Shown in pieces: positions 8,706 to 60,462 of a DNA stretch of 64,000 nt. The DNA comes from Methylococcus mesophilus (GTDB lineage Bacteria; Pseudomonadota; Gammaproteobacteria; Methylococcales; Methylococcaceae), in the NCBI RefSeq assembly GCF_026247885.1, contig NZ_CP110921.1:1-64000 (forward strand). The letters are read 5' to 3'. Positions within the stretch are counted from its first letter, which is position 1. Each line of letters begins with the position of its first letter. The position numbers were made by a program, and so were the translations under genes. A model generated the notes under the pieces. It did not search any database, was not told where the DNA came from, and saw only the letters and a program-made list of their open reading frames with translations.

Positions 8706-9153
8706 GCTGCCTCCTATCGAGGCAGACTCTACATCACGACCGGACTAATCTCGGGGAGCAGGTCAGAGATCATCGAGTGTTATCGCGACATCGATGAGCT
8801 GCTTGTGATCGGAGGGGTGCTCTGGGGCACGGATGCGAGCAATGACTACTTCATTGCCGACCACGGCATCAGGACACCGGACGCGTTCTGGAAGGTGGGT
8901 ATCCGCGGGAACGGTAAGACGATTGCTTGGATCATTCCGAACGACGCGACAGCAACGCGGAAGAACCTGGATAAGTTCCTCGTGACTGCGGCGAAGATCG
9001 AGAAGAAGACAGGGCAGGTGCTTCCAGAGGTACCGAAGGTCTGGCGGACGAAGCGGCCGGCGAAGAGTTGGGCGAAGCCGGCCGGGTGTGATTTGGGGTA
9101 AGACCGGCTTATGGTCTATGCCGGGGCAAGTTTAGAAGCAAGGTATCAATGTT

Positions 9154-9348
9154 ATGATGAATCAGATGATATTTCGGATTTTTTTAGGGCCGATACTGAT
9201 AGGCGTCTTAGCTGTCGTAGTGTATCTATTTTTCGGAGTATTCATTCCAGCACTCTTTGAAAATTCGGTGTATCTGAAATCGCTTGGCGCAATGGCGCGG
9301 AATGTTGCAGCTCCCGCGGCCGAATTGGTGGGGCTGGGGCGGCACTAA
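9154..9348 (+). CDS. Possible small membrane protein
   Basis: A 64-residue open frame with two tandem ATG codons at 9154 and 9157 and only a weak AAGG upstream. One strong transmembrane helix (FLGPILIGVLAVVVYLFFGV) is followed by a short Ala-rich tail. No family recognised. It stands alone between the broken nuclease gene and the leftward ATPase operon, so it could also be chance. Confidence 0.4.
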   Translation: MMNQMIFRIFLGPILIGVLAVVVYLFFGVFIPALFENSVYLKSLGAMARNVAAPAAELVGLGRH

Positions 9349-9509
9349 TAGCAATGTTTCAGTCTTGGAAGCTATGGAGATGGGAGCAAGGCAAAGAGGA
9401 GTGCTGCCACGTTTGTGGATGTCTTGTGGTACGAAAGGAAGGGCGATATGGATCGTACTTGCGGTGTTATGCTTGTAATAAAATAAGGGGTATCTAGATA
9501 GCTGGTTTG

Positions 9510-10013
9510 TTAAACTTTCCGATTGCGAAATCGGCGTTTCAACTTCCGAATACACCCGTCACGGTATTCTTTCCGGAAGCTATTTTCGAGAGCTTGCATA
9601 AGATCGTCCTTCGCCCCTGAGATTTCATTCAGTATAACCCCGTTAGTATCTTGGGGAGAGAAGTTTTTTGTATCGAAATTTAAATATGTAATAGCCTGTC
9701 GAAGGTACCGTATTGTGGATTGCTCGTCGCAGTCTAACAGTCTTTCGTCGTTTATGATCGAGATTAGTCGTTGGATGGTAAGTTTAATTTTTCGCGACAA
9801 CGTAGTGTCTTGCTTCTGCGCGGTATGGTAGGTGTAAGCGTTATCTTCTAAATCATCAAGCTCTTTCTTAAGCCGGTCAAGCAGGGTGCGCCGCTCCTTC
9901 CTACTCTCTCGCCAATTATTCTGAGCATTAACGACCATCCATCCAAGGAAGACGATAGTCCATGTCAGTAACTCTCCGAGCCTGACCTCAGTGTTGAATT
10001 TGGGGAGTTCCAT
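9510..10013 (-). CDS. Membrane-anchored coiled-coil protein of the ATPase/STAS operon
   Basis: Encodes 167 residues: one N-terminal membrane helix (LLTWTIVFLGWMVVNA) followed by a long charged helical region (RKERRTLLDRLKKELDDLED) and a basic C-terminus. Its start overlaps the end of the DUF4325 gene by 26 bases, so the three genes 9510-11380 are translationally linked. AT-rich codon use matches the other two. No family recognised; its topology suggests a membrane effector or anchor for the two soluble partners, which is inference. Confidence 0.7.
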   Translation of the reverse strand: MELPKFNTEVRLGELLTWTIVFLGWMVVNAQNNWRESRKERRTLLDRLKKELDDLEDNAYTYHTAQKQDTTLSRKIKLTIQRLISIINDERLLDCDEQSTIRYLRQAITYLNFDTKNFSPQDTNGVILNEISGAKDDLMQALENSFRKEYRDGCIRKLKRRFRNRKV

Positions 10014-10314: not shown

Positions 10315-11380
10315 GATGACCCTCGTCACGATCTTTCCCCAGTGGAGTAGCCCAAGCAATAATGGTGCCTAGGATCGAAGTCGAAAAATTGTCCACGAGT
10401 TCGTTCTGACCGTCGTAGGTGTAAAGACCTTTGTTACTGAAAATTCTAACTTTTCCTTTGAATTCACCGGTAATTGCGGTGACCATCTGGCGCAGACCTC
10501 GCCCTCGATGTGACGCCCCTGTTCTAGAAACAGACACTTGAGTTGCTTCTTTTATGACATGACCGTCGCTCAGCGGATTCTGTCCGATTAAGCTTAGCAA
10601 GCTTTGCCACAAAGTTGGATGTTGCTTCGGCAAAGATCCTGGTATTCCAATACCAAGATCGCAAAATACAACGAGTAGAATCCCATCGCGCTCTTGAGAG
10701 AACATCCACCAATCCTTAGTATCATCCTCTAGTTGTATATTTAGGCCATCATTCCTAGGCTCGATGTGTGCGTGGTAATGAACATTGCTCATGGCCTCTG
10801 TCAAACCAACGTAAAGCTTATGTGACAATGTGGGTGCTATTGAGCCGTCATACCTGCCAAGGATTTCGTCGTATTTTTCACCTACAGCCCCTCGACCTGT
10901 GGCGAACCGCCAATGGACTACATCTTCATCTAGACTGGCTCCGATCTTAATAGGAGTTCGCAAACGTTTATAAACGCCGATTCTGCTTAGTACTTGGGAA
11001 ACTTTTCGCTTCGCGGCTGGAACGCATCTAATGGTTATTTGTTTTTCGTAGCGTTTGGAAAGATATTGTATGCGTGAAAGCTCTGCGACAAAAAGCAGAG
11101 TCCCTCCAGCGTCTAATTTTTGAGTATTGCTGAAGTTGATGCATGCGCATTTCTCTTTAACGAGCACAGTGTAGCGAAGTTGATTTATGAATGTGAGCAG
11201 TTGTGATCTTGGTTTTTCTTTTGAGATATCAAAGCTATAAGGTGCGGCGATTTGTATGTGTGTTGGAAATCTCTTTTTGACTGAGTTTGAACTATATTTC
11301 TTTGACTTCTTGATACGACGACGTAGTCGAAGGTTCCTTCGAATTTCGTATTCTTTTTTGTCCCTACTCAGTTTTCGCAC
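10286..11380 (-). CDS. GHKL-type ATPase with N-terminal STAS-like region
   Basis: A 364-residue protein. The C-terminal half carries the HATPase boxes: an N box in YVGLTEAMSNVHYHAH (Glu and Asn for Mg-ATP), a G1 box FCDLGIGIPG and a G2 box HRGRGL. The first 45 residues are very basic. Between them, CACINFSNTQKLDAGGTLL looks like a STAS-type segment. No histidine phosphoacceptor domain or membrane segment is visible, so it is not a normal sensor kinase. It leads an AT-rich leftward operon with DUF4325 and a membrane protein. Likely a soluble signalling or partner-switching kinase-like ATPase used by the lysogen. Confidence 0.8.
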   Translation of the reverse strand: MRKLSRDKKEYEIRRNLRLRRRIKKSKKYSSNSVKKRFPTHIQIAAPYSFDISKEKPRSQLLTFINQLRYTVLVKEKCACINFSNTQKLDAGGTLLFVAELSRIQYLSKRYEKQITIRCVPAAKRKVSQVLSRIGVYKRLRTPIKIGASLDEDVVHWRFATGRGAVGEKYDEILGRYDGSIAPTLSHKLYVGLTEAMSNVHYHAHIEPRNDGLNIQLEDDTKDWWMFSQERDGILLVVFCDLGIGIPGSLPKQHPTLWQSLLSLIGQNPLSDGHVIKEATQVSVSRTGASHRGRGLRQMVTAITGEFKGKVRIFSNKGLYTYDGQNELVDNFSTSILGTIIAWATPLGKDRDEGHHEQHYHQYR

Positions 11381-11563
11381 TGGATTCCCGGTAAGTTCGA
11401 CTCATTAGAAAGCATGAAATGTAGAAACGATGCCTGCTTACCAAACAACCGGCGGATATTACTTCGGCCCGAATTGAGCAGGCAGTCAAAGGCACGCCTG
11501 CCGCGGCCTCCAATCGATTTGACGCACGAACAACTATGGCTGGATTAATATTTACCTCAGTGG

Positions 11564-46999: not shown

Positions 47000-47250
47000 T
47001 CAATGCGATTGGCGACTTTGGCGCCATTGAGATTGCCCGGCATTATCGTTCGATGCCCTGGCTAAGGTGGGTAAGGCGCCGATGGCATTGCCGGCTTTCT
47101 GTTCGGCCCGGCGCAGTTCGTAGGACTTTTGCAGGTTGAGCCAGAATTCGGCGCTGGTGCCGAAGGAGTGGCCGAGGCGAAGGGCGGTGTCTCCAGTGAC
47201 GGCGTGCTGGCCGTTGAGGATCTAGGTGATCCGGTTGGTAGGCACCTGGA
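47000..47250 (-). pseudogene. HigA-type antitoxin remnant with an in-frame stop
   Basis: The minus strand reads VPTNRIT, then TAG, then ILNGQHAVTGDTALRLGHSF and GTSAEFWLNLQKSYELRRAE to a TGA at 47000-47002. This is the HTH region of HigA/VapI antitoxins, in which the stop position is normally Gln (CAG to TAG). The N-terminal part before VPTNRIT is not recognisable and no HigB toxin is next to it. A decayed toxin-antitoxin locus. Confidence 0.75.
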
Positions 47251-47354
47251 CCGGGGGCTCGTGTCGTTCAAGGGGATGTCATAGCCCAGGCATAACCGTT
47301 ACGATTAGCCATCATCGATCAATCGTTCGATTGCTGCCTCCCGAAGAGTTGCGA

Positions 47355-47888
47355 ATGGCATCTGAGAAATCCCAAGTTCCTGATCCTGGCCCACTTCCCC
47401 CTGTGCCGCAATCCGGCTCCGGTCTTGGGGATGAAGAGACTCTGGAACCGCGCAAGCGGCGCACCAAGAAAACGGCGCATCCGCCACGCTGTTTCGTCGA
47501 GCCGAAGTTCAAACTGACCTTGCGTCTGCTCTATGGGACTGAAATTGCCTTCGGCCCCGGCAAGGCGGAGTTGCTGGAGGCGATCGAACAGACCGGCTCG
47601 ATATCGGCCGCCGGCCGCAGCATGGATATGAGCTACCGGCGGGCGTGGCTGCTGGTGGACACCATGAACCGTTCTTTCCGCGAGCCGGTGGTAGACGCCT
47701 CCCGTGGTGGGCGGCATGGCGGAGGTGCTCACCTGACGCCTTTCGGCAAGGAGGTGCTGGAGCGCTACCGCGAGGTCCAGGGCGCGCTCCAGCAGGTCGC
47801 CGATACCTACCTGCGGCTGTTTCGTCCTTGCATGGCTACGACGCCGCCGATCGGCGACCCTGCCGAAATTCCCCATCCGGATTCCTGA
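47355..47888 (+). CDS. modE: ModE-type molybdate-responsive regulator, N-terminal domain only
   Basis: A 177-residue protein. After a charged Pro-rich stretch of about 45 residues comes the ModE winged helix: LLEAIEQTGSISAAGRSMDM, SYRRAWLLVDTMNRSF and GGGAHLTPFGKEVLERYREV. The two C-terminal Mop (TOBE) domains that bind molybdate in E. coli ModE are absent; short ModE proteins exist in many bacteria. It probably controls the molybdenum genes to its right through the boxes at 51064, 53363 and 60439. A separate di-Mop protein is at 56909. The ATG at 47355 has only a weak GAAGAG upstream. Confidence 0.88.
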   Translation: MASEKSQVPDPGPLPPVPQSGSGLGDEETLEPRKRRTKKTAHPPRCFVEPKFKLTLRLLYGTEIAFGPGKAELLEAIEQTGSISAAGRSMDMSYRRAWLLVDTMNRSFREPVVDASRGGRHGGGAHLTPFGKEVLERYREVQGALQQVADTYLRLFRPCMATTPPIGDPAEIPHPDS

Positions 47889-47906: not shown

Positions 47907-49400
47907 TCAGGGTTCCACTACCACCGATACGGCATCGCACACCAGTGGCGACTGGCCGGTCGGTTTGACGCAAACCCGGAGAGCGCCCTGGCTGGTGGTC
48001 TGCTTCCGGGTCGGCTTCCAGTTGAAGCTCCGTTTCTTGGCCGCCGCGGTTCCGATCGTCTTGAAATTCGCCCCGTCTTTGGCGAACTGGATCTTCACTT
48101 GGCGGCTGCCTTTCATGGTGCCGGGATCCCAGCCGATCTGCTGCTTGACCTTGACCTTCCACTGGGTGGGCGCGATCAGGGTAATGAGCTTCGCTGCACT
48201 GATGTCCACCTGGGTAGCCGTGGTCGAGAAGGCAGCGCCGTCGCTCACGGTGAGCTCGAATCCATAGCTCCCTTCCTGCGCCGGTGTGAAGCTGGCCTTT
48301 GCCGTCGTATCCCCGGCCAGGGCAACCGCCACAGGGCCGGACACCTGGGTCCATTGGTAGGCCAAGGGGGAGGGGCCTTGATCCGGATCGCTGCTGGCGC
48401 TTCCGTCGAGAGTCACGAGGTTTCCCGCGACCGTTGTCTGAGGTGGTCCCGCATTGGCAACCGGAGGCTGATTCACTGCGCCTACCGCCACGGTGACGGC
48501 AGCCGTGGCCGAGGCTTCACCATCGCCCACGGTAAGCCGGAAGCCGTAGCTCCCTGCCTTCGCGGCACTGAAGCTCGGTTTGGCCGTGTTGTCTCCAGTC
48601 AAGGCCGCGAACGGCCCGGAGGTCTGGCTCCAGGCATAGGACAGAGGATCGGGACCATTGTCAGGGTCGTGGCTGGCGCTGCCGTCGAGCGTCACTACGG
48701 CGCCTTGGTCGACTGTCCGGGCTCCGCCGGCATCGGCGACGGGCGCTTGGTTGGCGCTGGCCTGGCCGGAAAAACTCAGCTTGCCATCGCCGCTCAAGGT
48801 CCAGGCGCCGAGCGCCCGGACGATGCCGCTGGCCGTCGCTCCGGTCGAATTGCTGACGAAATAGAACGGCAAGGCTTGGCCGATCTGGCCGACGCTGCTT
48901 CCGCCCAATTCGCCATTGAGACTCGGTCCCCAATGGTCGCCGTCGAAGTAGCCGCCGTCCCCAACGCCGAATCCACCGCTGGCACCGGTGAGATAGCCGG
49001 CGTAAACCAGCATGCGCTGCCTCACCGCATCCACCGCGACGAAACTGTGGCCGAAGATCCCCCGCCCCTCGGAGGAGGTCAGGAGGTAGCCCCACTGGGC
49101 GATGTTGCTTTGGTCCGGCTTGAGCGCATTGAACGCCGCGACGTTGTATACGAGGTTGGGTTTGCCCAGAAAGGCAGCAAAATTTCCGTCCGCTGCCAGG
49201 TCGGCGCTCGCGGAAGGATTTTGCACGAACTGGTCCATCGTCGTGCCGAGGTCCCGGTAATAGGACTTGCGGCTATCCGGATCGAACACCGCGATGAACA
49301 GGGAGGAAGGCGCACCATTGTTGCCGTTGCTGGTGAGCGCCGAGGCATGTCCGGCCCAGAAGGCGAGCAGCCAGAGGCCTAGGGTCAAGAATCTGGTCAT
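47907..49400 (-). CDS. Secreted protein with two PKD domains
   Basis: From the ATG at 49400 it has 497 residues with a signal peptide ending near ASA. The first 225 residues are an unknown domain (GYLLTSSEGRGIFGHSFVAV, GGFGVGDGGYFDGDHWGPS). Two PKD repeats follow (LDGSASHDPDNGPDPLSYAW and LDGSASSDPDQGPSPLAYQW) and a C-terminal beta-sandwich with LITLIAPTQWKVKVKQ. It is extracellular or surface bound. The gene is 34 bases after the binding-protein gene in the same direction and so falls under the upstream ModE-box-like site; it converges with modE. Confidence 0.8.
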   Translation of the reverse strand: MTRFLTLGLWLLAFWAGHASALTSNGNNGAPSSLFIAVFDPDSRKSYYRDLGTTMDQFVQNPSASADLAADGNFAAFLGKPNLVYNVAAFNALKPDQSNIAQWGYLLTSSEGRGIFGHSFVAVDAVRQRMLVYAGYLTGASGGFGVGDGGYFDGDHWGPSLNGELGGSSVGQIGQALPFYFVSNSTGATASGIVRALGAWTLSGDGKLSFSGQASANQAPVADAGGARTVDQGAVVTLDGSASHDPDNGPDPLSYAWSQTSGPFAALTGDNTAKPSFSAAKAGSYGFRLTVGDGEASATAAVTVAVGAVNQPPVANAGPPQTTVAGNLVTLDGSASSDPDQGPSPLAYQWTQVSGPVAVALAGDTTAKASFTPAQEGSYGFELTVSDGAAFSTTATQVDISAAKLITLIAPTQWKVKVKQQIGWDPGTMKGSRQVKIQFAKDGANFKTIGTAAAKKRSFNWKPTRKQTTSQGALRVCVKPTGQSPLVCDAVSVVVEP

Positions 49401-49434: not shown

Positions 49435-50955
49435 TCAGAGGTTTGGCGTTTGCCCTTCTGCAACCTGGGGATAGGTGCAATTGTCCAGGCTGCCCGTCGG
49501 GGCATGGGTATAGGCGGTGACAGGATTGTTCGGATCGAAGGGATGCGTCACCGAATAGCCCTGCGCCGCTACGGCGATGAACGAGCCTTTGCCCCAGGGC
49601 TGGGCGATGGCCGCGTTCAACTGGCCGAACATGCTCGGCGTCGTGGCGTCGGTGGCGATCTTCTGGATCAGCGTCAGGGTGTCTCCGGTCGGAGCGGGAG
49701 CGTTCCGCCGCCAGGCATAGGCCGCTTCCGAGAAATACTGGTAGTGGCCCGCGGCGACTTCCTCCACCGTCGGCGCTGCACCGTCGATTTTGATGTAGCG
49801 GTAGGCGAGGGCCAGATTGCCATTACGTTCGGTGGTCAGCATGCCGACGGCCCAGGCCTTGGCCGTATTGGGGTTGTATGTGCCGTTGTTGGTGCCGTCG
49901 TTGAAATCAGCGAGGCAATTTTCCTCCACGGTCACCTGGGTAGGCGTGACCACCACCGGGCCGGCGATCGGGTTGCTGACCTCCACCGGCACCGAGCCGG
50001 TCGCCGCGCAGGGCGTGTTGAGGAAGTAGGCGTTGATGGCCGCCTGGGTACTGGCGCCTTTGTTGCGCCGGCAAATGTGGACCAGCGGGGTGCTGAAGGA
50101 ACCACTGTTGAAATCCGTCAGCGGTTTGGAGGTCGTGCCGAATTCCACCTTCACGTCGCTCCACTTGCCGATACGGCCGGCAAAGAGGCTGGTGAGGAGG
50201 CCCTTGCTAAGCGACGGCATGCAGGCTTCCGTTTCCCGCAGGTTGGCGTCGGTCAGGCACTGCGCATCGAGTTTGCCTTGCGCCACCTGGGCTTCCTGCA
50301 GCGCGTCGCGGAGATTCTTGCTGACGGGGGTGTTCTGCAGTACCGCGCCGGCGTTCTTGACGGTCAGCGTCGCGGCGACCGATGCGGGCGTGGGCTGATT
50401 GAACGAGATGCCGTCGATCGTAGGGTTGTAATTGATGTCGCGGAAAATCTGCGGGTCGATGTCCGAAACGCCCATGTCGGGCAGGGTCTTGAACTGATCG
50501 CCAGGACGGTCGGTGCGGCAGGTCCAGCTTTGCGAACCGGCCGATGTGCACTGGGCTTCGCCGCCCGGAGAGTTGTTGATGCCCATGAAATTGATGGTTT
50601 TTTCGGGCTCCAGCAACGGATAGATGCCGGTGATGGCGCCGCTGCGGTTGCGTTTGAGCAGCAGCACTTTGGGATCCTTGAGATTGAGTCCGGGCACCTT
50701 GCTGGAGTCGATCTGGCAGAAGAACGCCTTGTAGTAGGTTCCCTTGCCGGCGGCGTCTGCGTCCTTGTAGGTGTCGAGGGTGCCTGATTTACACAAGTCG
50801 TCCAGCACCTTTTTGAAGTTGTTGTCCTGAATGGTGGATCCCGCGATGCGAATGGTGATGTCAGGCGTATCGCTGGGCGGAAGGGCGAGCGCGGTGGCGC
50901 TGATAAACGATAGACCGCCGGATACGATGGCGGAATTCATGACGCGAAGCTTCAT
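49435..50955 (-). CDS. Large periplasmic binding-like protein
   Basis: A 506-residue protein with a signal peptide (ATALA) and then ITIRIAGSTIQDNNFKK, the opening of PstS/ModA-type class II periplasmic binding folds (beta strand, Gly-Ser loop). Later segments such as FAGRIGKWSDVKVEFG and FSTPLVHICRRNKGASTQAA fit the second lobe, where PstS-like proteins bind an oxyanion. It is longer than PstS or ModA and has several Cys. A perfect ModE-box-geometry palindrome lies 109 bp upstream. The ligand could be molybdate, tungstate or phosphate; the regulatory site favours molybdate. Confidence 0.65.
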   Translation of the reverse strand: MKLRVMNSAIVSGGLSFISATALALPPSDTPDITIRIAGSTIQDNNFKKVLDDLCKSGTLDTYKDADAAGKGTYYKAFFCQIDSSKVPGLNLKDPKVLLLKRNRSGAITGIYPLLEPEKTINFMGINNSPGGEAQCTSAGSQSWTCRTDRPGDQFKTLPDMGVSDIDPQIFRDINYNPTIDGISFNQPTPASVAATLTVKNAGAVLQNTPVSKNLRDALQEAQVAQGKLDAQCLTDANLRETEACMPSLSKGLLTSLFAGRIGKWSDVKVEFGTTSKPLTDFNSGSFSTPLVHICRRNKGASTQAAINAYFLNTPCAATGSVPVEVSNPIAGPVVVTPTQVTVEENCLADFNDGTNNGTYNPNTAKAWAVGMLTTERNGNLALAYRYIKIDGAAPTVEEVAAGHYQYFSEAAYAWRRNAPAPTGDTLTLIQKIATDATTPSMFGQLNAAIAQPWGKGSFIAVAAQGYSVTHPFDPNNPVTAYTHAPTGSLDNCTYPQVAEGQTPNL

Positions 50956-51390
50956 CTCGAATCTCCAGAGGAATTGTTAAAGTCTTTCTTCCCATGTCAC
51001 GGCCCCGTGCCTTCGTCTGCCTGGCTGATGAACGGGGAGAATAAGCGCGCATAGGCGTGACTTCGTTATACCTTAAATGACATAACGAGTTCAAACAGGC
51101 AAAGGTTGTGCCTAATTGGAATACCGATGTCCCGCTGGTCCAGCTGGATAGGTATGCCCTAAGTTGGTGCTAACCGGACAGAGGGTTCGGGTTACTGTCC
51201 GTGTTAGGCAGCCTTTAGTGAAGGCAGGATTGCAGTGCTGCGTTGACGGCTGCACTAAGCGGCCGATCCCCAACACTTGCCCGATTATGGGGCATTCTGT
51301 TGCATCTTGTGAAATACATTGAAAACATTATGCAAGCGCAGGTCCGCATGCGGTACCTGCGATTGTCGGAATGCCTGTCGGGACGAACAC
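50956..51390. other. Intergenic region between binding-protein and porin genes
   Basis: This 435-bp stretch has no supported gene. It holds the ModE-box-like palindrome at 51064-51087, which faces the leftward binding-protein operon. Downstream of the porin stop (51391) I see no clear terminator. Confidence 0.5.
51064..51087. promoter_or_regulatory. ModE-box-like site before the binding-protein/PKD operon
   Basis: CGTTAT, 12 bases, ATAACG: a perfect inverted repeat with the same arms and spacing as the E. coli modA operator (recalled as CGTTAT-N12-ATAACG). It lies 109 bp upstream of the ATG at 50955. No molybdenum gene in the classical sense follows, which makes this a notable site. Confidence 0.75.
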
Positions 51391-53130
51391 CTAAAACGCG
51401 ATCTGAAACCGCGTAAACCACGCCTGTTCTTGCCGGCGATTTTCGCCCTTCAATCCGCCGCCGCCGGTGAACCAAGTGTTGCTGTAGTCGGTCTGGAACT
51501 TCATGAACGGGTTCAGATACCAGTTGAGGGCCGTAGTAAAGGTATTGGCGCCGGAGACCGAAGTGAGCGGGTTGGCGAGGGTAGCGTCCTTGCCGTTCGC
51601 GCCTTTGAACGGCTCGAAGGCGTGGGAGTCCAGGGTAAGGCCGGTCCAGCGGCCGGCGAGCACGAAAGCGCCCCAGTTGCCCGCCATCGGGTCGAAGTTG
51701 TTCTGGGGCTTGATACCGAAGAAGCCGTCGCGTTCCCCCGTCAGAACGTACGAGGCTTCTAGGTTCCAGGCCCGGTTGTTCATGGTGGTGTCGTAGTTCG
51801 CAGTCGTGCTTCCGGACGTGCTCGTGGCGAGCACTTGGTGGTTGGTCCAGATGTATTCGCCGAGCAGGCCGAACGGACCGTAGTACCAGTAAGCCTGCGG
51901 ATAGTAGCGGTAGGCATTGCCGTTGGCGACGACCGATGACGTGTTGGTGCCGCTGCCGCCGTAGTTGAAGATGGTTTGCTGGCCTACGCTGATCAGTTTG
52001 TTGAGTGTCTGGTTGATCGGATTTCCCCAGGTGCCGGCCACGCCGATCCCCAGACCCTCCAGCGGTTCGATGCCGCTCTTGAGGAAGGGATGGGAGAAGA
52101 TGCGGGCGGCGATGTCTTTTTCCTGGTCGACTTCGACGTCGCTCTGGCTGACCGGGGTGCTGTCGCCGGTGCCGTTGAACCAGCCGAACTCGTAGGATAT
52201 CCAGTCGCGGAACACCGGCTGGATCGAGTACTGAGGCTTGTACCCCGGATAGCCGATCTGGCCGTGGAGCATCGCGCCGATGTCGCGGTTGGGCGCGATC
52301 TGGGCGGGATAGCCGCGCTCCACGAAGTCGAGGTTGGTGGCGCTTTTGTAGCGTTCCAAGCTCATCGGCACCCGCATCTTGCCGACCATCAGCGCGGCTT
52401 CCGGAATGTAGTGGGCGTCGATGAAGGCGTCGAAGAGCTGCAGTTGGCTGTTGGCGAAATCGGGCGATATCCGCCAGTCGACCCATTTGAACAACTGGCC
52501 TTCGAAAATGAGGCGGGCGCGCCGGATCAGCGCAGCGTCGGTGAGGTTGGAGCCGGGATTCTTGGTCTCGTTGGAACCGTCGAAAAAGGTGCGGAAATCG
52601 GCCTGCAGATAGCCGCGCAGGGCGAGTTTGTAATTGCCGTCGGCGGAAGACCAGGCGATGCCGCGGTCGCCGATTTCGGTGAGGGCGCTCTTCTTGATCT
52701 TTTCTTCCGCGGCCGCTTTCTGGGCTTCGGTCGTCTTTTCCAAGGTGGTGACCCGCTCATGCAGCTCGGTGACCTTATTCGGATCGAAACCTTCGGTGGG
52801 CCATTGCTGGAAACTGCTGACCCAGCTTTCCAATTCCTTGTCGGCCTTGGCCTGGGCCGCCTTTTCGGCTTGGTCGGTCTGGCCATTTTGTGCTTTGGCC
52901 GGCTTGGATGCCGCTGCTGCGGTTGCGGCGACCACCTTCTGGGTCACGGCCAGCTTTTGTTTCAGTTCGGCGTTTTCCTGTTCGGATTTTTCCAGCTTGC
53001 CTTCCAACTGAAGCATGCGCTGTTCCATGGCCTGCATACGTTCCTCCATGGTCATCGAAAACGTCTCCGGCGCATGCAACAGCGCGGGAGCCGCTGCGAT
53101 CATCAGAGGGGGCAATTTTCGCAATCTCAT
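51391..53130 (-). CDS. OprO/OprP-type phosphate-selective porin family protein
   Basis: From the ATG at 53130 (GGAGA upstream) it has 579 residues: signal peptide (ALLHA), an N-terminal coiled coil (RMLQLEGKLEKSEQENAELK) typical of the family's trimerisation or peptidoglycan region, then the porin barrel with LALRGYLQADFRTFFDGSNE, IRRARLIFEGQLFKWVDWRI and the C-terminal FTRFQIAF ending in Phe. These outer-membrane channels pass anions, mostly phosphate. It is divergent from modA1, and its upstream region carries half of a ModE box, so molybdate may be its relevant anion. Confidence 0.88.
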   Translation of the reverse strand: MRLRKLPPLMIAAAPALLHAPETFSMTMEERMQAMEQRMLQLEGKLEKSEQENAELKQKLAVTQKVVAATAAAASKPAKAQNGQTDQAEKAAQAKADKELESWVSSFQQWPTEGFDPNKVTELHERVTTLEKTTEAQKAAAEEKIKKSALTEIGDRGIAWSSADGNYKLALRGYLQADFRTFFDGSNETKNPGSNLTDAALIRRARLIFEGQLFKWVDWRISPDFANSQLQLFDAFIDAHYIPEAALMVGKMRVPMSLERYKSATNLDFVERGYPAQIAPNRDIGAMLHGQIGYPGYKPQYSIQPVFRDWISYEFGWFNGTGDSTPVSQSDVEVDQEKDIAARIFSHPFLKSGIEPLEGLGIGVAGTWGNPINQTLNKLISVGQQTIFNYGGSGTNTSSVVANGNAYRYYPQAYWYYGPFGLLGEYIWTNHQVLATSTSGSTTANYDTTMNNRAWNLEASYVLTGERDGFFGIKPQNNFDPMAGNWGAFVLAGRWTGLTLDSHAFEPFKGANGKDATLANPLTSVSGANTFTTALNWYLNPFMKFQTDYSNTWFTGGGGLKGENRRQEQAWFTRFQIAF

Positions 53131-53157
53131 GACAAAGTTCTCCGTTGTCGGGTTGGT

Positions 53158-53181
53158 CAGAATATTGTTAAAAATATAACG
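53158..53181. promoter_or_regulatory. Imperfect ModE-box-like site before the porin gene
   Basis: CAGAAT, 12 bases, ATAACG, 28 bp upstream of the porin ATG. Only the ATAACG arm is perfect; the other arm matches 3 of 6. Could be a weak site or chance. Confidence 0.35.
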
Positions 53182-53362
53182 CGAGACGCGAGACAAGCGA
53201 GGTCTTGCCGCATGATGGAAAGATGCCAGCGTGCCTATGATGCAAAGGGGCGTCTGACGTAGCCAGCTAGTGTCTGATCAATGGATCATTTACAATTCGC
53301 GTGGTTTATCGGCGCCCACCGGTGCTTTACGCTGTCTTTCAACAACCCGCAAATCAACCATG

Positions 53363-53386
53363 CGATATATTTAATCTCGCATATCG
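53363..53386. promoter_or_regulatory. ModE-box-like site before modA1
   Basis: CGATAT, 12 bases, ATATCG: a perfect inverted repeat with ModE-box geometry, 72 bp before the modA1 ATG in the porin-modA1 divergent region. In E. coli, ModE bound to molybdate represses the transporter operon from such a site. Confidence 0.75.
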
Positions 53387-53409: not shown

Positions 53410-54207
<798 letters not shown>

Positions 54208-54232: not shown

Positions 54233-55003
54233 ATGAGCTTCGCCAAATTTTGGCTTATCGCCTGGTTTCTGCTTTCAGCGGGAGTGGCGCAGGCAGGCAA
54301 GATTACCGTCGCCGCCGCGGCAGATCTCAAATTCGCGATGGATGAGATCGTCGCGACGTTCAAGAAATCCAATGCCGGCGAGGACGTGGAGGTGATCTAC
54401 GGCTCTTCCGGCAAATTCCACGCCCAGATTCAGGAAGGGGCGCCCTACGACCTCTATTTTTCCGCCGATATCGGTTTCCCACGTGAACTGGTGAAAAAAG
54501 GCCTGGCCGGCTCGGAAGTCAAACCCTACGCTTTCGGCCGAATCGTGCTGTGGAGTGCGACCCTCGACGCCACCAGGATGAATCTGAACAATCTCGCCGA
54601 TCCCAAGATTGCCCGCATCGCCATCGCCAACCCCAAGCATGCGCCCTACGGTAAGCGGGCCGAAGAGGCATTGCGCGCCGCGGGGGTGTGGGACAGGGTG
54701 GAACCGAAGCTGGTGTACGGCGAGAATATCGCGGCCACGGCGCAGTTCGTACAGACGGGCAACGCCCAGATCGGCGTCATCGCACTGTCTCTGGCGCTGA
54801 ATCCGGAGCTGGCGAGCAAGGGAGGCTACTGGCTGATCCCGGATTCCCTTCACGAGCCTCTCGAACAGGGTTTCATCATCACTAAGCGGGCGGAGAGCAA
54901 TCCGTTGGCCAAACGTTTCGCCGACTACATGAGCAGCAAGCCGGCTCGCGCCGTGATGACGCGGTACGGTTTCGTGCTACCGGGCGAGAAGTTGAAAAAA
55001 TAA
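54233..55003 (+). CDS. modA: Molybdate-binding protein ModA (second copy)
   Basis: From the ATG at 54233 with AAGGAG upstream it has 256 residues. Signal peptide ends near VAQA, then KITVAAAADLKFAMDEIVAT, YGSSGKFHAQIQEGAPYDLY and GNAQIGVIALSLALNPEL. It is closest in style to the AvModA type. It is in the same operon as modA1, modB and modC. Two binding proteins for one permease may give different affinities or specificities (molybdate versus tungstate), which is inference. Confidence 0.93.
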   Translation: MSFAKFWLIAWFLLSAGVAQAGKITVAAAADLKFAMDEIVATFKKSNAGEDVEVIYGSSGKFHAQIQEGAPYDLYFSADIGFPRELVKKGLAGSEVKPYAFGRIVLWSATLDATRMNLNNLADPKIARIAIANPKHAPYGKRAEEALRAAGVWDRVEPKLVYGENIAATAQFVQTGNAQIGVIALSLALNPELASKGGYWLIPDSLHEPLEQGFIITKRAESNPLAKRFADYMSSKPARAVMTRYGFVLPGEKLKK

Positions 55004-55015
55004 GGGGTCGCCAGG

Positions 55016-55693
55016 ATGCTCCTGTCCGACAGCGACCTTCAGGCTATCTGGCTCACCGTCAGGCTGGCGAGCATCGTCACCGCGATCCTGCTCATCGTCG
55101 GGACGCCCATCGCCTGGTGGCTGGCGCGTACACGATCCAAATGGAAAGGGCCGATCGGCGCCGTCGTGGCTTTGCCCTTGGTGCTGCCGCCATCGGTGCT
55201 GGGATTCTACCTCCTGCTGGCGATGGGGCCTTACGGGCCGGTCGGTTATCTGACAAGCGAGCTGGGAATCGGCCCGCTGCCGTTTACGTTCTGGGGACTG
55301 GTGCTGGCCTCGGTATTCTATTCATTGCCTTTCATGGTTCAGCCGGTGCAGAACGCCTTCGAGGCGATCGGCGACCGGCCGCTGGAAGTGGCCGCGACGC
55401 TGCGCGCCACGCCGCTGGATGCGTTCTTCAGCGTCGCTCTGCCGTTGGCGCTGCCGGGGTTTCTCACCGCCGGCATTCTGACGTTCGCGCATACCGTGGG
55501 CGAGTTCGGAGTGGTGTTGATGATAGGCGGCAACATACCGGGCGTGACGCGGGTGGCCTCGGTCCAGATTTACGACCACGTGGAAGCGTTGGAGTACGCC
55601 CAGGCCCATCGGCTGGCGGCGGTGATGCTGGTGTTTTCGTTTCTGGTTCTGCTGGGGCTCTACGCCTGGCGGCCCAACCCCAAAAAGGCGTGA
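55016..55693 (+). CDS. modB: Molybdate ABC transporter permease ModB
   Basis: A 225-residue inner-membrane protein with about five to six transmembrane helices and the binding-protein-dependent permease motif near [20 protein letters not shown] (EAA loop that contacts ModC). It begins 12 bases after modA2 and ends one base before the modC start. It forms the channel of the ModABC importer. Confidence 0.95.
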
Positions 55694-55694
55694 C

Positions 55695-56765
55695 ATGGGG
55701 GAGATTCGCGCCCGTTTCCAGATCGACTGGCCGGGTTTCCGGCTCGACGTCGACCTGGCCCTGCCCGGACGGGGAGTGACGGCATTGTTCGGCCATTCCG
55801 GTTCGGGAAAGACCACGCTCCTGCGCTGCATCGCGGGACTCGAACGCGCCTCCCCAGGGCACCTCGCGTTCAACGGCGAAGTCTGGCAGGACGAAAGAAC
55901 ATGGGTTCCCACCCACAGGCGGCCGTTGGGGTACGTTTTTCAGGAGGCCAGCCTGTTTCCCCATCTGACGGTTCTCGGCAATCTGCGCTTCGGGATGAAA
56001 CGCGCATCCGCGCAGCAAAGGGTGGGCCTGGATCCGGCCGTGGAGCTCTTGGGCATCGGCCATCTCCTGGACCGAAGGCCGGACCGGCTGTCTGGCGGAG
56101 AGCGCCAGCGTGTCGCCATTGCCAGAGCGCTCGCCGTAAGCCCGCGCATCCTGCTTATGGACGAGCCGCTTGCTGCACTTGATCTCAAGCGCAAGCAGGA
56201 AATCCTCCCGTACCTGGAGCGCTTGCATGACGAACTCGATATTCCGGTCATGTACGTGAGCCATTCTCCCGATGAGGTGGCGCGGCTGGCGGATCACCTC
56301 GTTGCGATGGAGGAGGGGCGGGTGATCGCCGCCGGCCCCCTGAAAGAAACCCTCGCGCGGCTCGACCTGCCCATCCGGCTCGGCGAAGATGCCGGGGCAG
56401 TGCTGGACGCGGTGGTGGGGGAGCGGGACGAGTCCTGGCACCTGGCGCGCGTCGACTTTCCCGGCGGCAGTTTGTGGACCAGGGATCGGGGTGTGCCGGT
56501 AGGGCGCAAAATCAGGGTGCGTGTGCTGGCCCGAGACGTCAGCCTGGCCCGGCAGCCACAAGAGGAAACCAGCGTCCTCAACCTGCTGCGGGGACGGGTG
56601 GACGCTATCGAGGACGAAGAACATCCGGGACAGGCGCTGGTACGGGTTCGCGTGGGAGAGTCGCCTTTGCTGGCCCGGTTGACGAAGCGTTCGGCATCCG
56701 CGCTCGGCATCGTCCGAGGCCTGGATGTATGGGTTCAGGTGAAGTCGATTGCCTTGATGGAGTGA
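55695..56765 (+). CDS. modC: Molybdate ABC transporter ATPase ModC
   Basis: A 356-residue protein: Walker A GHSGSGKTT, signature LSGGERQRVAIARAL, Walker B RILLMDEPLAAL, switch His in MYVSHSPDE. The C-terminal third is a Mop/TOBE domain (SVLNLLRGRVDAIEDEEHPG) that senses molybdate and can stop transport. Normal length. It hydrolyses ATP to drive ModB. Confidence 0.95.
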   Translation: MGEIRARFQIDWPGFRLDVDLALPGRGVTALFGHSGSGKTTLLRCIAGLERASPGHLAFNGEVWQDERTWVPTHRRPLGYVFQEASLFPHLTVLGNLRFGMKRASAQQRVGLDPAVELLGIGHLLDRRPDRLSGGERQRVAIARALAVSPRILLMDEPLAALDLKRKQEILPYLERLHDELDIPVMYVSHSPDEVARLADHLVAMEEGRVIAAGPLKETLARLDLPIRLGEDAGAVLDAVVGERDESWHLARVDFPGGSLWTRDRGVPVGRKIRVRVLARDVSLARQPQEETSVLNLLRGRVDAIEDEEHPGQALVRVRVGESPLLARLTKRSASALGIVRGLDVWVQVKSIALME

Positions 56766-56908: not shown

Positions 56909-57337
56909 ATGAAAGCGAGTGCACGCAATCAGTATTTCGGCAAGATCACCGCGGTCAACGTCGGCGCAGTCAATGCCGAGGTCGTCGTGGGTTTGAAGGG
57001 AGGCCAGAGCGTCGTGGCCGCGATCACCAAGGAATCGGTGGAAAAGCTCGGCGTCAAAGTCGGCGGCGACGCCGTGGCCCTGGTTAAAGCGCCGCAGGTC
57101 ATCGTCGTCACCGACGCGGCGGGCTACCGCCTGTCCGCCCGCAACCAGCTCAGCGGCAAGGTGAGCCGCATCCACAAGGGCGCGGTCAATTCGGATGTCA
57201 TCATCGACCTGGGCGGCGGAGAGACCGTAGCCGCCACCATTACCAACGACAGTCTCGAAGCGCTGGGGCTGGCGGAAGGCCAGACCGCGACGGCGGTGTT
57301 CAAGGCCGGGTCGGTCATCCTCGGCGTGGCCGACTAA
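56909..57337 (+). CDS. mop: Molbindin, di-Mop molybdate-binding protein
   Basis: A 142-residue cytoplasmic protein of two Mop (TOBE) repeats: SARNQYFGKITAVNVGAVNA to about residue 68, then SARNQLSGKVSRIHKGAVNS to the end. Such proteins (ModG, Mop) assemble into rings that hold molybdate. It follows modC by about 143 bases in the same direction. Because the local ModE lacks Mop domains, this protein might supply the sensing function, but buffering is the established role. Confidence 0.93.
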   Translation: MKASARNQYFGKITAVNVGAVNAEVVVGLKGGQSVVAAITKESVEKLGVKVGGDAVALVKAPQVIVVTDAAGYRLSARNQLSGKVSRIHKGAVNSDVIIDLGGGETVAATITNDSLEALGLAEGQTATAVFKAGSVILGVAD

Positions 57338-58488: not shown

Positions 58489-59322
58489 TCAGGCAGGGCT
58501 CGCGCTAGTGTGGATAACCGTCCCAACGTGTTCGCCGCGCAGTGCAGCGGTGAGCCGGCCCGGTACCAGTCCGTTCACGACCTGCACGTGCCCGAGGTGA
58601 CGCGCGGTTGTCATGACCTCGAGAAGGGCACGGTCGACCGGCAGGGTGCCTTGGAGCTTTGCCAGGTCGGCAACGCTCGTCTCGCGGAGTAACTGCGCCG
58701 TTTCTCCGCCGAGGCCGTTGGGGTCGGTGGTGTACACCCCGTCCACGTCCTCCACGATCGTCAGGCCGGCGGCTCCGAGCGCATCGGCGAGCAGGAACGC
58801 GCCCGTGTCGGCCCGGTGAGGCGGAATGCGCGAACCCGGAAACTCGTGGTGGTGGTACGGCGGGAAGGCGCTGCCTACGACCGCGCGGGCCGAGGTGAGG
58901 TGGATGGCAAGCTGGTTCGCGAGCGTGGGGTGCTCAACGTAGGAGACGCCCTCCGGCGCGAGCAGCGACGCGAGGATGTGGCCGTTCTGGCCGGCCTCGC
59001 TCGCGGCGAGGGGAGCGAGCGAGCCGACCGGCAGCCCGAGGTCGAGGCCGACGCTGTAGACGTGGCGGGCACGGATGCCGGCACCGGTCAATATGAGCAG
59101 ACGGTGCTCCGGCAGCAGTTTGCGAAGCTCGTCCACGATGGGGAGGATTGCGTCCCGGCCGCGATCCATGATGGAGCGGCCGCCGATCTTCACGACCTGC
59201 AGCCAGGGGAGGATCCGGATCGGGCGTCCGCCCGCGACGGGGCGGGTAAGTTCACCGTCGAGCAGAGTCTGGCGCGCGAGCGGCGAGGAGACGTGCTTGA
59301 TATTGTTGGTCTGGTTGGGCAT
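58489..59322 (-). CDS. mosA: Molybdenum storage protein subunit MosA
   Basis: A 277-residue protein with GGAT before the ATG at 59322. It matches the Azotobacter molybdenum storage protein alpha subunit as I recall it: [78 protein letters not shown] and [20 protein letters not shown]. The fold is that of UMP kinase; with MosB it forms a hexamer of three alpha and three beta subunits that stores about a hundred Mo atoms as polyoxomolybdate using ATP. The His-rich HHHEF segment contacts clusters. Confidence 0.95.
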
Positions 59323-59334
59323 GGCAGTGATCCT

Positions 59335-60147
59335 TTAGCTCGCGGTGATGATAGTGCCGACGTGCTCGCCGGCGAGCGCGCGGGTCAGATTGCCGGGAAC
59401 GAGGCCGTTCACAACCTGTACCTCTCGAACGTGGCGTGCCGCCTTGAGCAGGTCGAGCATCGGGAACTCGAGGATCGAGTCGTGCAGCCCCTGTGCCTTC
59501 ATTTCATCGACCGAGATTTTCGGAATGAAGGTGGCGTTTTTGGCGGTTTTCGGGTTCGCGGTGTAAAGGCCGTCTTCGTCCTTCACGAAGATCATCGCTT
59601 TGCAGCCGAACTGCTCGGCGAGGAGGAAGCAGCCGGCGTCGGTGCGATAGGGCGGGATGACCCCATCCGCGGGAGGTCGCATCCAGAGACTGTAGGGCGG
59701 CATGCCGCTGAAGATGACGGCGTTCACCTCGGCGAGGTAGAGCGGCACCGCCGAGAGCCCCGCTCCGCTGACTGCGGAGATGCCGTGCTTCGCGAGGAGT
59801 TGGCCCAGCATCGCGGCATTCTGGTCGGCAACCGAGTCGCCGAGCTGCGAAAGCACGCCCGCCGGCAGATTGAGTTCCGCCGCGATCGAGTAGAGGTGCC
59901 GGGCGCGGGTGCCTGCGCCGGTCCCGATGAGCAGCTTGTGCTCTTTGCGGGCGGCGACGATCTCGTCCACGAGTGGATAGACGGCTGCGCGGCCACGGTC
60001 GATGACGCTCTGCCCGCCAATTTTGATCACCGTAGCGTCCGGCAGTATCCGGAAATCCGCCGCCGTTTCCGTTGCGGCCAGAAGCTGCGCGTCGGTCAGT
60101 GATCGCTGCATAAGCAGCTCTTCGAGTTCAACTGTTGTATTGGTCAT
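59335..60147 (-). CDS. mosB: Molybdenum storage protein subunit MosB
   Basis: From the ATG at 60147 it has 270 residues, the same length as Azotobacter MosB. It carries ELEELLMQRSLTDAQLL, LPDATVIKIGGQSVIDRG, IGTGAGTRARHLYSIAAEL and [20 protein letters not shown]. It is the first gene of the mosBA operon (12 bases before mosA). The frame is open to 60210, but that stretch has no homology or good start. A ModE-box-like site lies 290 bp upstream. Confidence 0.95.
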   Translation of the reverse strand: MTNTTVELEELLMQRSLTDAQLLAATETAADFRILPDATVIKIGGQSVIDRGRAAVYPLVDEIVAARKEHKLLIGTGAGTRARHLYSIAAELNLPAGVLSQLGDSVADQNAAMLGQLLAKHGISAVSGAGLSAVPLYLAEVNAVIFSGMPPYSLWMRPPADGVIPPYRTDAGCFLLAEQFGCKAMIFVKDEDGLYTANPKTAKNATFIPKISVDEMKAQGLHDSILEFPMLDLLKAARHVREVQVVNGLVPGNLTRALAGEHVGTIITAS

Positions 60148-60438: not shown

Positions 60439-60462
60439 CGTTATATCTTAAAAATCATATCA
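60439..60462. promoter_or_regulatory. ModE-box-like site upstream of mosBA
   Basis: CGTTAT, 12 bases, ATATCA: one mismatch from the palindromic form CGTTAT-N12-ATAWCG. It is on the upstream side of the mosBA operon, in the long intergenic region. Confidence 0.55.

Follow-up and report, generated by a model that had tools for sequence, protein, structure and literature searches.

The window analysed here, the first 64 kb of the single-contig genome of Methylococcus mesophilus (4,343,116 bases), carries a cluster of molybdate (mod) import genes that also includes genes for a porin of the OprP/OprO type, for a PKD-domain protein and for a secreted 506-residue protein with the fold of PstS (hereafter SBP506). 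The cluster runs from a gene for a ModE-like DNA-binding protein through those for the PKD protein, SBP506 and the porin, all three on the reverse strand, to modA1-modA2-modB-modC, a di-Mop gene and a TauE-like gene on the forward strand, and it closes with two AA_kinase genes on the reverse strand (Table 1) that are taken here to resemble the gene pair of the molybdenum storage protein. ModE is split in Methylococcus, with the di-Mop gene as its separate other half; in genera g6 and g26 the two are fused as modE-mop (loci, genomes and genera are given L, G and g numbers where they must be told apart). The nearest genomes sampled are also Methylococcus, and the order and strand of the PKD and SBP506 genes are conserved in L035-L037. 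Comparison of these sequences indicates that the locus is probably an island for molybdate import under ModE control, equipped with an outer-membrane entry of its own.

Table 1. Genes and ModE-like boxes of the molybdate locus, with positions in the window.
Feature	Position	Strand	Basis or remark
OprP/OprO-type porin	51391..53130	-	PF07396, 72.7 bits (cut-off 20.9)
SBP506 (506-aa secreted PstS-fold protein)	49435..50955	-	AlphaFold2 model and structural match to PstS
PKD-domain protein	47907..49400	-	two PKD stretches; ATG start at 49400; ~32 bp downstream of SBP506, same strand
ModE-like box CGTTAT-N12-ATAACG, CGTTATACCTTAAATGACATAACG	51064..51087		starts 132 bp upstream of the SBP506 gene
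ModE-like box CGATAT-N12-ATATCG, CGATATATTTAATCTCGCATATCG	53363..53386		porin/modA1 divergent region; perfect palindrome
Degenerate ModE-like box, 2 mismatches	53158..53181		just upstream of the porin; its right half is the half box ATATAACG
modA1	53458..54207	+	TIGR01256, 214.1 bits (cut-off 62.5)
modA2	54236..55003	+	TIGR01256, 200 bits; reading frame open from 54164, start provisional
modB	55016..55693	+	assigned by position and look; 96-98% conserved beside modC in L035-L037
modC	55695..56765	+	TIGR02142, 435 bits (cut-off 285)
ModE-like regulator, DNA-binding domain only	47226..47888	+	TIGR00637, 80.6 bits, below cut-off 98.5
di-Mop molybdate-binding protein	56909..57337	+	TIGR00638, 144.8 bits (cut-off 55)
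Two AA_kinase proteins	58489..60147	-	PF00696 in both
ModE-like box, 1 mismatch to CGNTAT-N12-ATANCG	60439..60462		upstream of the storage-protein-like AA_kinase pair

The evidence that carries this reading comes mainly from the porin and its genomic partners. A profile of the porin matched only OprO (4rjx, 4rjw) and OprP (2o4v) in the PDB at E <= 0.01 (E 6.4e-18 to 3.7e-15), and a phmmer search with the single sequence matched neither. The window porin thus resembles the Pseudomonas aeruginosa proteins in its above-threshold PF07396 domain and in having them as its sole PDB profile matches, and differs from them in a long N-terminal extension. A search of the order Methylococcales returned 123 matches, summed over genomes, at E <= 1e-40 in 108 of 301 genomes, and the neighbours of 84 of these (the window and 83 other loci; the other 39 were left out) were examined for partner genes within 4 kb. 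A sulfate-binding-protein gene lies by the porin at 67 loci, mod genes lie by it at 13 (the window and 12 others), and 4 have neither; these last include two that end ~50 bp from the porin (L185, L215) and one with a sulfate-binding-protein gene 5 kb off, past the 4-kb limit (L204). A total of 80 of the 84 loci therefore pair the porin with ATP-binding cassette (ABC) importer genes for molybdate or sulfate, and not with phosphate genes. Moreover, at L143, L144, L145 and L150 the porin adjoins a mod operon of another type, whose ModA is about 24-27% like that of the window, and at the last three of these a fused modE-mop gene follows the porin. Since the porin stays linked beside non-orthologous mod operons, its linkage is not simple inheritance of a single operon. 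Outside the order, a match was found in 12 of 369 genomes sampled in the class and 5 of 398 in the phylum; none of 12 such loci was mod-linked, 8 lying by sulfate genes and 4 having no partner assigned, two of them on contigs of ~5 and ~3 kb.

The phylogeny of the porin follows this division. In a tree of 82 rows, which did not include the window porin or the short open reading frame (ORF) of L186, ten mod-linked porins from g1 (Methylococcus), g6 and g26, representing three genera and two families, form one clade with a Shimodaira-Hasegawa-like approximate likelihood ratio (SH-aLRT) support of 100, and two more, from g5, form a small group that encloses one sulfate-linked row. The molybdenum label changes 3 times on this tree versus 11.4 times in shuffles, none of 500 of which was as low, in a test that near-copies favour. 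Additionally, R253 is present in 11 of 11 porins of the molybdenum clade (the window included), versus Lys at this position in 62 of 65 sulfate-linked porins. When the 600 bp upstream of each porin were searched for CGNTAT-N12-ATANCG with at most one mismatch, a box was found at 11 of 13 mod-linked loci versus 8 of 65 sulfate-linked loci (two of the 67, with less than 200 bp upstream, were dropped) and 1 of 4 others, with a Fisher value of 6.0e-7 that is inflated by relatedness, 6 of the 13 being Methylococcus. At L146 and L147 the porin heads a same-strand cluster, porin-modA-modA-modB-modC-modE/mop, and in L146 two exact boxes precede it (9234-9257 and 9422-9445), both of which a divergent gene at 9639 might share. 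At L197, where the porin and mop-modCBA converge, the porin has a 1-mismatch box to itself and modA has another. Separately, six sulfate-linked porin loci (L153, L155, L156, L177, L190 and L207) have in common an AT-rich palindrome, GATAT-N-ATCTAATTATATC, upstream of or near the porin, with a spacer unlike that of the ModE box.

The boxes at the locus itself also stand out from their genomic background. An earlier note on this stretch, made from its letters, had placed the ORFs of SBP506, of the PKD protein downstream of it, of the Porin_O_P protein and of modA1 correctly, and the perfect ModE-box palindrome that it reported at 51064-51087 is real and is the sole exact CGTTAT-N12-ATAACG in the genome. 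Allowing one mismatch gives 6 genomic sites versus 3 in a backward-read control, and allowing two gives 5 sites in the window versus 0.98 expected, a number that none of 100 shuffles reached. The box starts at -132 to -142 of SBP506 in all four Methylococcus orthologues and is exact in three of them (the window, L036 and L037), which have differing spacers in diverged surrounding DNA; this conservation of position and sequence argues against a chance occurrence. The fourth, L035, has a degenerate box with 2 mismatches. A transposase-like ORF adjoins it (10396-11466 in genome G003), and this insertion may have altered control of SBP506 there. The second box that the note called perfect, at 53363-53386, is indeed a perfect palindrome; it is of the CGATAT form, 2 mismatches from CGTTAT, and fits CGWTAT-N12-ATAWCG, of which there are 4 exact copies genome-wide versus 1 in the backward control, 2 of the 4 lying at this locus, 2.3 kb apart. 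It has aligned copies in L035, L036 and L037 and is degenerate in L142. The half box noted beside the porin is likewise present, as the right-hand part of a full but degenerate box whose counterpart in L142 has 1 mismatch. A promoter scan found 2 promoter-like sites before SBP506, where 0.6 were expected, and no such site between the divergent porin and modA1 genes. The palindrome and its place upstream of mod genes agree with E. coli-type ModE regulation as far as the consensus is quoted in the accessible part of PMC545781; the locus departs from that system in that boxes also precede the porin and a PstS-fold protein, and in the split of ModE.

Elsewhere in the same genome, a 1-mismatch box (G000:C1:428122-428145; L045 8123-8146) lies near nifH and nifD, and is followed by a gene for a small secreted Oxidored_molyb protein (PF00174) and then by one with a weak CCP_MauG match. 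A boxed gene of the same Oxidored_molyb kind is present at the mod locus of G093 (L143, box at 8875-8898).

SBP506 has the type II periplasmic-binding fold of PstS. Its AlphaFold2 model, based on 39 rows (predicted local distance difference test score, pLDDT, 91.4), matches PstS (4lat) with a Z of 23.4 over 259 aligned residues and a root-mean-square deviation of 2.5 A, and the top 38 rows of the structural list are all phosphate-binding or DING proteins, the DING proteins standing at a Z of about 15; a Foldseek comparison gave an E of 1.6e-8. By sequence, Pfam gave PBP_like_2 alone, at 16.9 bits, under its cut-off of 27, and neither TIGR01256 nor SBP_bac_11 (ModA) matched up to E 0.1 in Pfam/NCBIfam; phmmer with SBP506 alone found nothing useful in the PDB. 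A profile of the family gave six PDB matches at E <= 1, five of them to phosphate-type binding proteins (E 0.032 to 0.41) and one to an RNA polymerase subunit, and it aligned with an E. coli PstS profile over 52 columns (probability 56, E 1.1e-4), with the family motif CRRxxGSGT opposite RRADGSGT of PstS. In PstS, the GSGT loop binds phosphate. The loop in the window reads RNKGAST, not RxxGSGT; at the changed places Ser is retained in 36 and Gly in 37 of 40 relatives, and none of the 40 has Ser302, one having the letters GAST elsewhere. GAST stands at the anion loop in all seven aligned rows of the molybdenum-linked clade and also in L036, L042 and L246, and this clade is monophyletic (SH-aLRT 100 in a 47-row tree). 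SBP506 thus shares with PstS and DING proteins its fold and the anion-loop Arg (R297, invariant in the family alignment), and differs from them in its 506 residues, in GAST for GSGT and in the lack of pst neighbours in the loci inspected. From the change of GSGT to GAST in this clade, it is fair to infer that the ligand may have changed too.

The distribution of SBP506 suggests a link to molybdenum and a second link to the cell surface. Homologues occur in 126 of the 301 genomes of the order; orthologues, at 55% identity or more, are narrower in distribution than the porin and were found among the loci read only in g1, g5, g7 and g12. Molybdenum genes lie beside 8 of 10 orthologue loci (the window, L035, L036, L037, L039, L040, L041 and L246), the other two (L038 and L042/L244) being on short or cut contigs, and a box lies upstream of 7 of 9 orthologues versus 0 of 8 paralogues, so that SBP506 looks to be under the same control as the porin, its role being a predicted one. 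Among the loci seen, it was never accompanied by a permease of its own. The family usually occurs in a two-partner-secretion cassette: a gene for a TpsB-like translocator is present at 41 of 57 named loci, in 38 cases within 4 kb downstream, and of the 16 that do not, 5 end within ~1.1 kb of the SBP gene. Two loci of the molybdenum clade retain TpsB (L039 and L069, with POTRA and ShlB domains); the ORF that follows it is 2209 aa or longer and has a TPS domain in L039, and is 1896 aa or longer in L069. The gene order of the paralogue loci, namely PKD, SBP, TpsB and giant TpsA, recurs in M. capsulatus Bath, where PMC4257694 places MCA2224 (PKD), MCA2226 and MCA2227 in a two-partner-secretion locus and counts PKD proteins among those likely to be secreted or at the surface; MCA2225 would be the SBP. 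The window pair differs from that locus in lacking TpsB and TpsA (no TpsB match between 46700 and 51400 at E <= 0.01) and in the ModE-like box that precedes it. Given the family's usual setting, the pair in the window seems to derive from a surface system, as a streamlined offshoot with a ModE-like box.

On these same data, the SBP506-PKD pair may instead come from a two-partner-secretion cassette that was brought under ModE, act at the surface or in adhesion and bind no molybdate. This explanation has a substantial chance of being correct, though one short of even: the frequent downstream TpsB gene, its retention in L039 (with the TPS-domain giant ORF) and L069, and the setting of MCA2224 all agree with it, whereas a ligand is suggested by the PstS fold and by an anion loop altered in this clade alone, and the window locus has no TpsB. 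For SBP506 and the PKD protein, the preferred role, proposed with modest confidence, is the capture of an oxyanion at the cell surface or outside the cell.

A second candidate module, the sulfate "triad" of L044 (PKD, SBP, porin, sulfate SBP, cysD and cysN), was considered and dropped. TpsB remnants lie between SBP and porin in L044 (10885-11346; 27 aa, E 0.005) and in L165 (45 aa, 78%, E 4.6e-17), and no match to SBP506, PKD or TpsB was found at L157, L163, L164 and L172, which are sulfate-porin loci from four further Methylococcus genomes; the L044 pair is therefore a decayed two-partner-secretion cassette, there by happenstance.

It is unlikely that the porin channels oxyanions in general (or phosphate) and has mod genes as mere neighbours, with the nearby boxes due to control of modA. 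The family is named for phosphate (PF07396), most of its relatives lie by sulfate genes, and at several loci the boxes fall in a shared divergent region. There is also a Pho-like site with 3 mismatches upstream of the porin, one of 2 between 46.5 and 54.5 kb versus 0.53 expected, by pattern search alone; the largest count in 30 shuffles was 2, so that such sites are near chance level. Set against the refuting condition of the earlier note, phosphate in place of molybdate control, this pattern count weighs in neither direction. Against a general channel stand the porins that head same-strand mod clusters in L146 and L147, the porin with its own box in L197, and the persistence of linkage although the adjacent mod operons are non-orthologous.

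It should be noted that several observations weigh against a dedicated molybdate island. Where porin and modA are divergent, a box between them may control only modA, and the best site upstream of the porin in L144 and L145 has 2 mismatches, no better than shuffles. L205 was classed as mod-linked solely through a ModE-like gene and a mop gene, and the sulfate-linked porin L192 falls inside the second small mod-linked group. The single-sequence model of the porin has a pLDDT of 38.3, too low to view pore residues such as the arginine ladder or the lysine cluster, and these porins may admit molybdate yet not be needed for its uptake. As for SBP506, L040 and L041 have no box before the orthologue, and Asp165, by eye, may match Asp56 of PstS, which would favour phosphate.

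The earlier note had proposed that porin, SBP506 and PKD protein form one module that brings molybdate across the outer membrane and holds it in the periplasm. Its assignment of the porin to molybdate import holds, as other genera show the same pairing beside non-orthologous mod operons, with ModE-like boxes alongside, and its view of the SBP506-PKD pair as molybdenum-responsive is supported with less force by the box and neighbour counts above. A single module is not supported as stated, since among the orthologue loci seen outside Methylococcus none had the pair next to a porin, and the porin occurs in G017 and G093, which lack the SBP506 orthologue. Periplasmic holding, as stated, gives way to one possible job among several, because the usual partner of the family is a two-partner-secretion translocator; that SBP506 is a third periplasmic molybdate-binding protein feeding ModBC is improbable, its signal-peptide-like N-terminus, PstS fold and adjacent mod genes being set against twice the size of ModA, no likeness to it in Pfam/NCBIfam, no permease of its own and the TpsB partnership. 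The porin part is thus stronger than the first reading could know, and the single-module and periplasmic-holding parts are weaker.

It was too strong to claim that no protein is described for the outer-membrane step. A P. aeruginosa route for molybdate through the type VI secretion system (T6SS), ModA and IcmP is in print (PMC9769707; reviewed in PMC8602904) and, as far as the accessible parts of these papers go, it uses a secreted ModA and an outer-membrane protein of the metalloproteinase type, not an OprP-type porin; an outer-membrane step for molybdate has therefore been proposed before. In the open-access literature, as far as its text was available, no OprP-type or other porin for molybdate is recognised, and searches there for a porin with a sulfate-binding protein and for a phosphate-selective porin returned no paper. 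A porin resembling PF07396 and controlled by FUR is reported from delta-proteobacteria in PMC545781, and regulon-specific use of this porin family therefore has a precedent.

The molybdate island proposed here would work as follows, with ModE binding, the direction of control, the substrates and the cellular locations all predicted. When molybdenum is scarce, ModE would leave its boxes, by analogy with the sign of control in E. coli ModE, and the porin, modA1A2BC and the SBP506-PKD pair would be expressed. The OprP-type porin, in a family that would have a second branch for sulfate import, would pass molybdate across the outer membrane; ModA1 and ModA2 would bind it for import by ModBC; and the storage-protein-like AA_kinase pair would keep it in the cell. 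SBP506, as a secreted oxyanion binder of the PstS fold whose anion loop has changed, would together with the PKD protein most likely capture an oxyanion at or outside the cell surface. A wider scenario can be put forward tentatively, as a possibility of about the same weight as the adhesion explanation or slightly less. In methanotrophs, a single porin family may have diverged into outer-membrane entries specific for one anion each, with Sbp/CysTWA as the partners of the sulfate porin and ModE as the regulator of the molybdate porin. In some genera ModE may also govern a two-partner-secretion cassette with a retuned PstS-fold loop for surface scavenging of molybdate; what the window shows would then be the porin branch and, of the surface branch, a streamlined remnant.

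Both nitrogen fixation and the use of nitrate are limited by molybdate, whose passage across the outer membrane is usually ascribed to general porins. The mod-linked porin in several related genera suggests a dedicated outer-membrane entry for it. The porin class that follows mod genes and the sister class that follows sulfate genes would be a matched pair for how a barrel separates two similar tetrahedral dianions, with fixed differences such as R253 as first candidates for anion discrimination, and the label "phosphate-selective porin" would need correcting for a large set of genes. If true, a split porin family together with surface scavenging would give a trace oxyanion a regulated route across the outer membrane.

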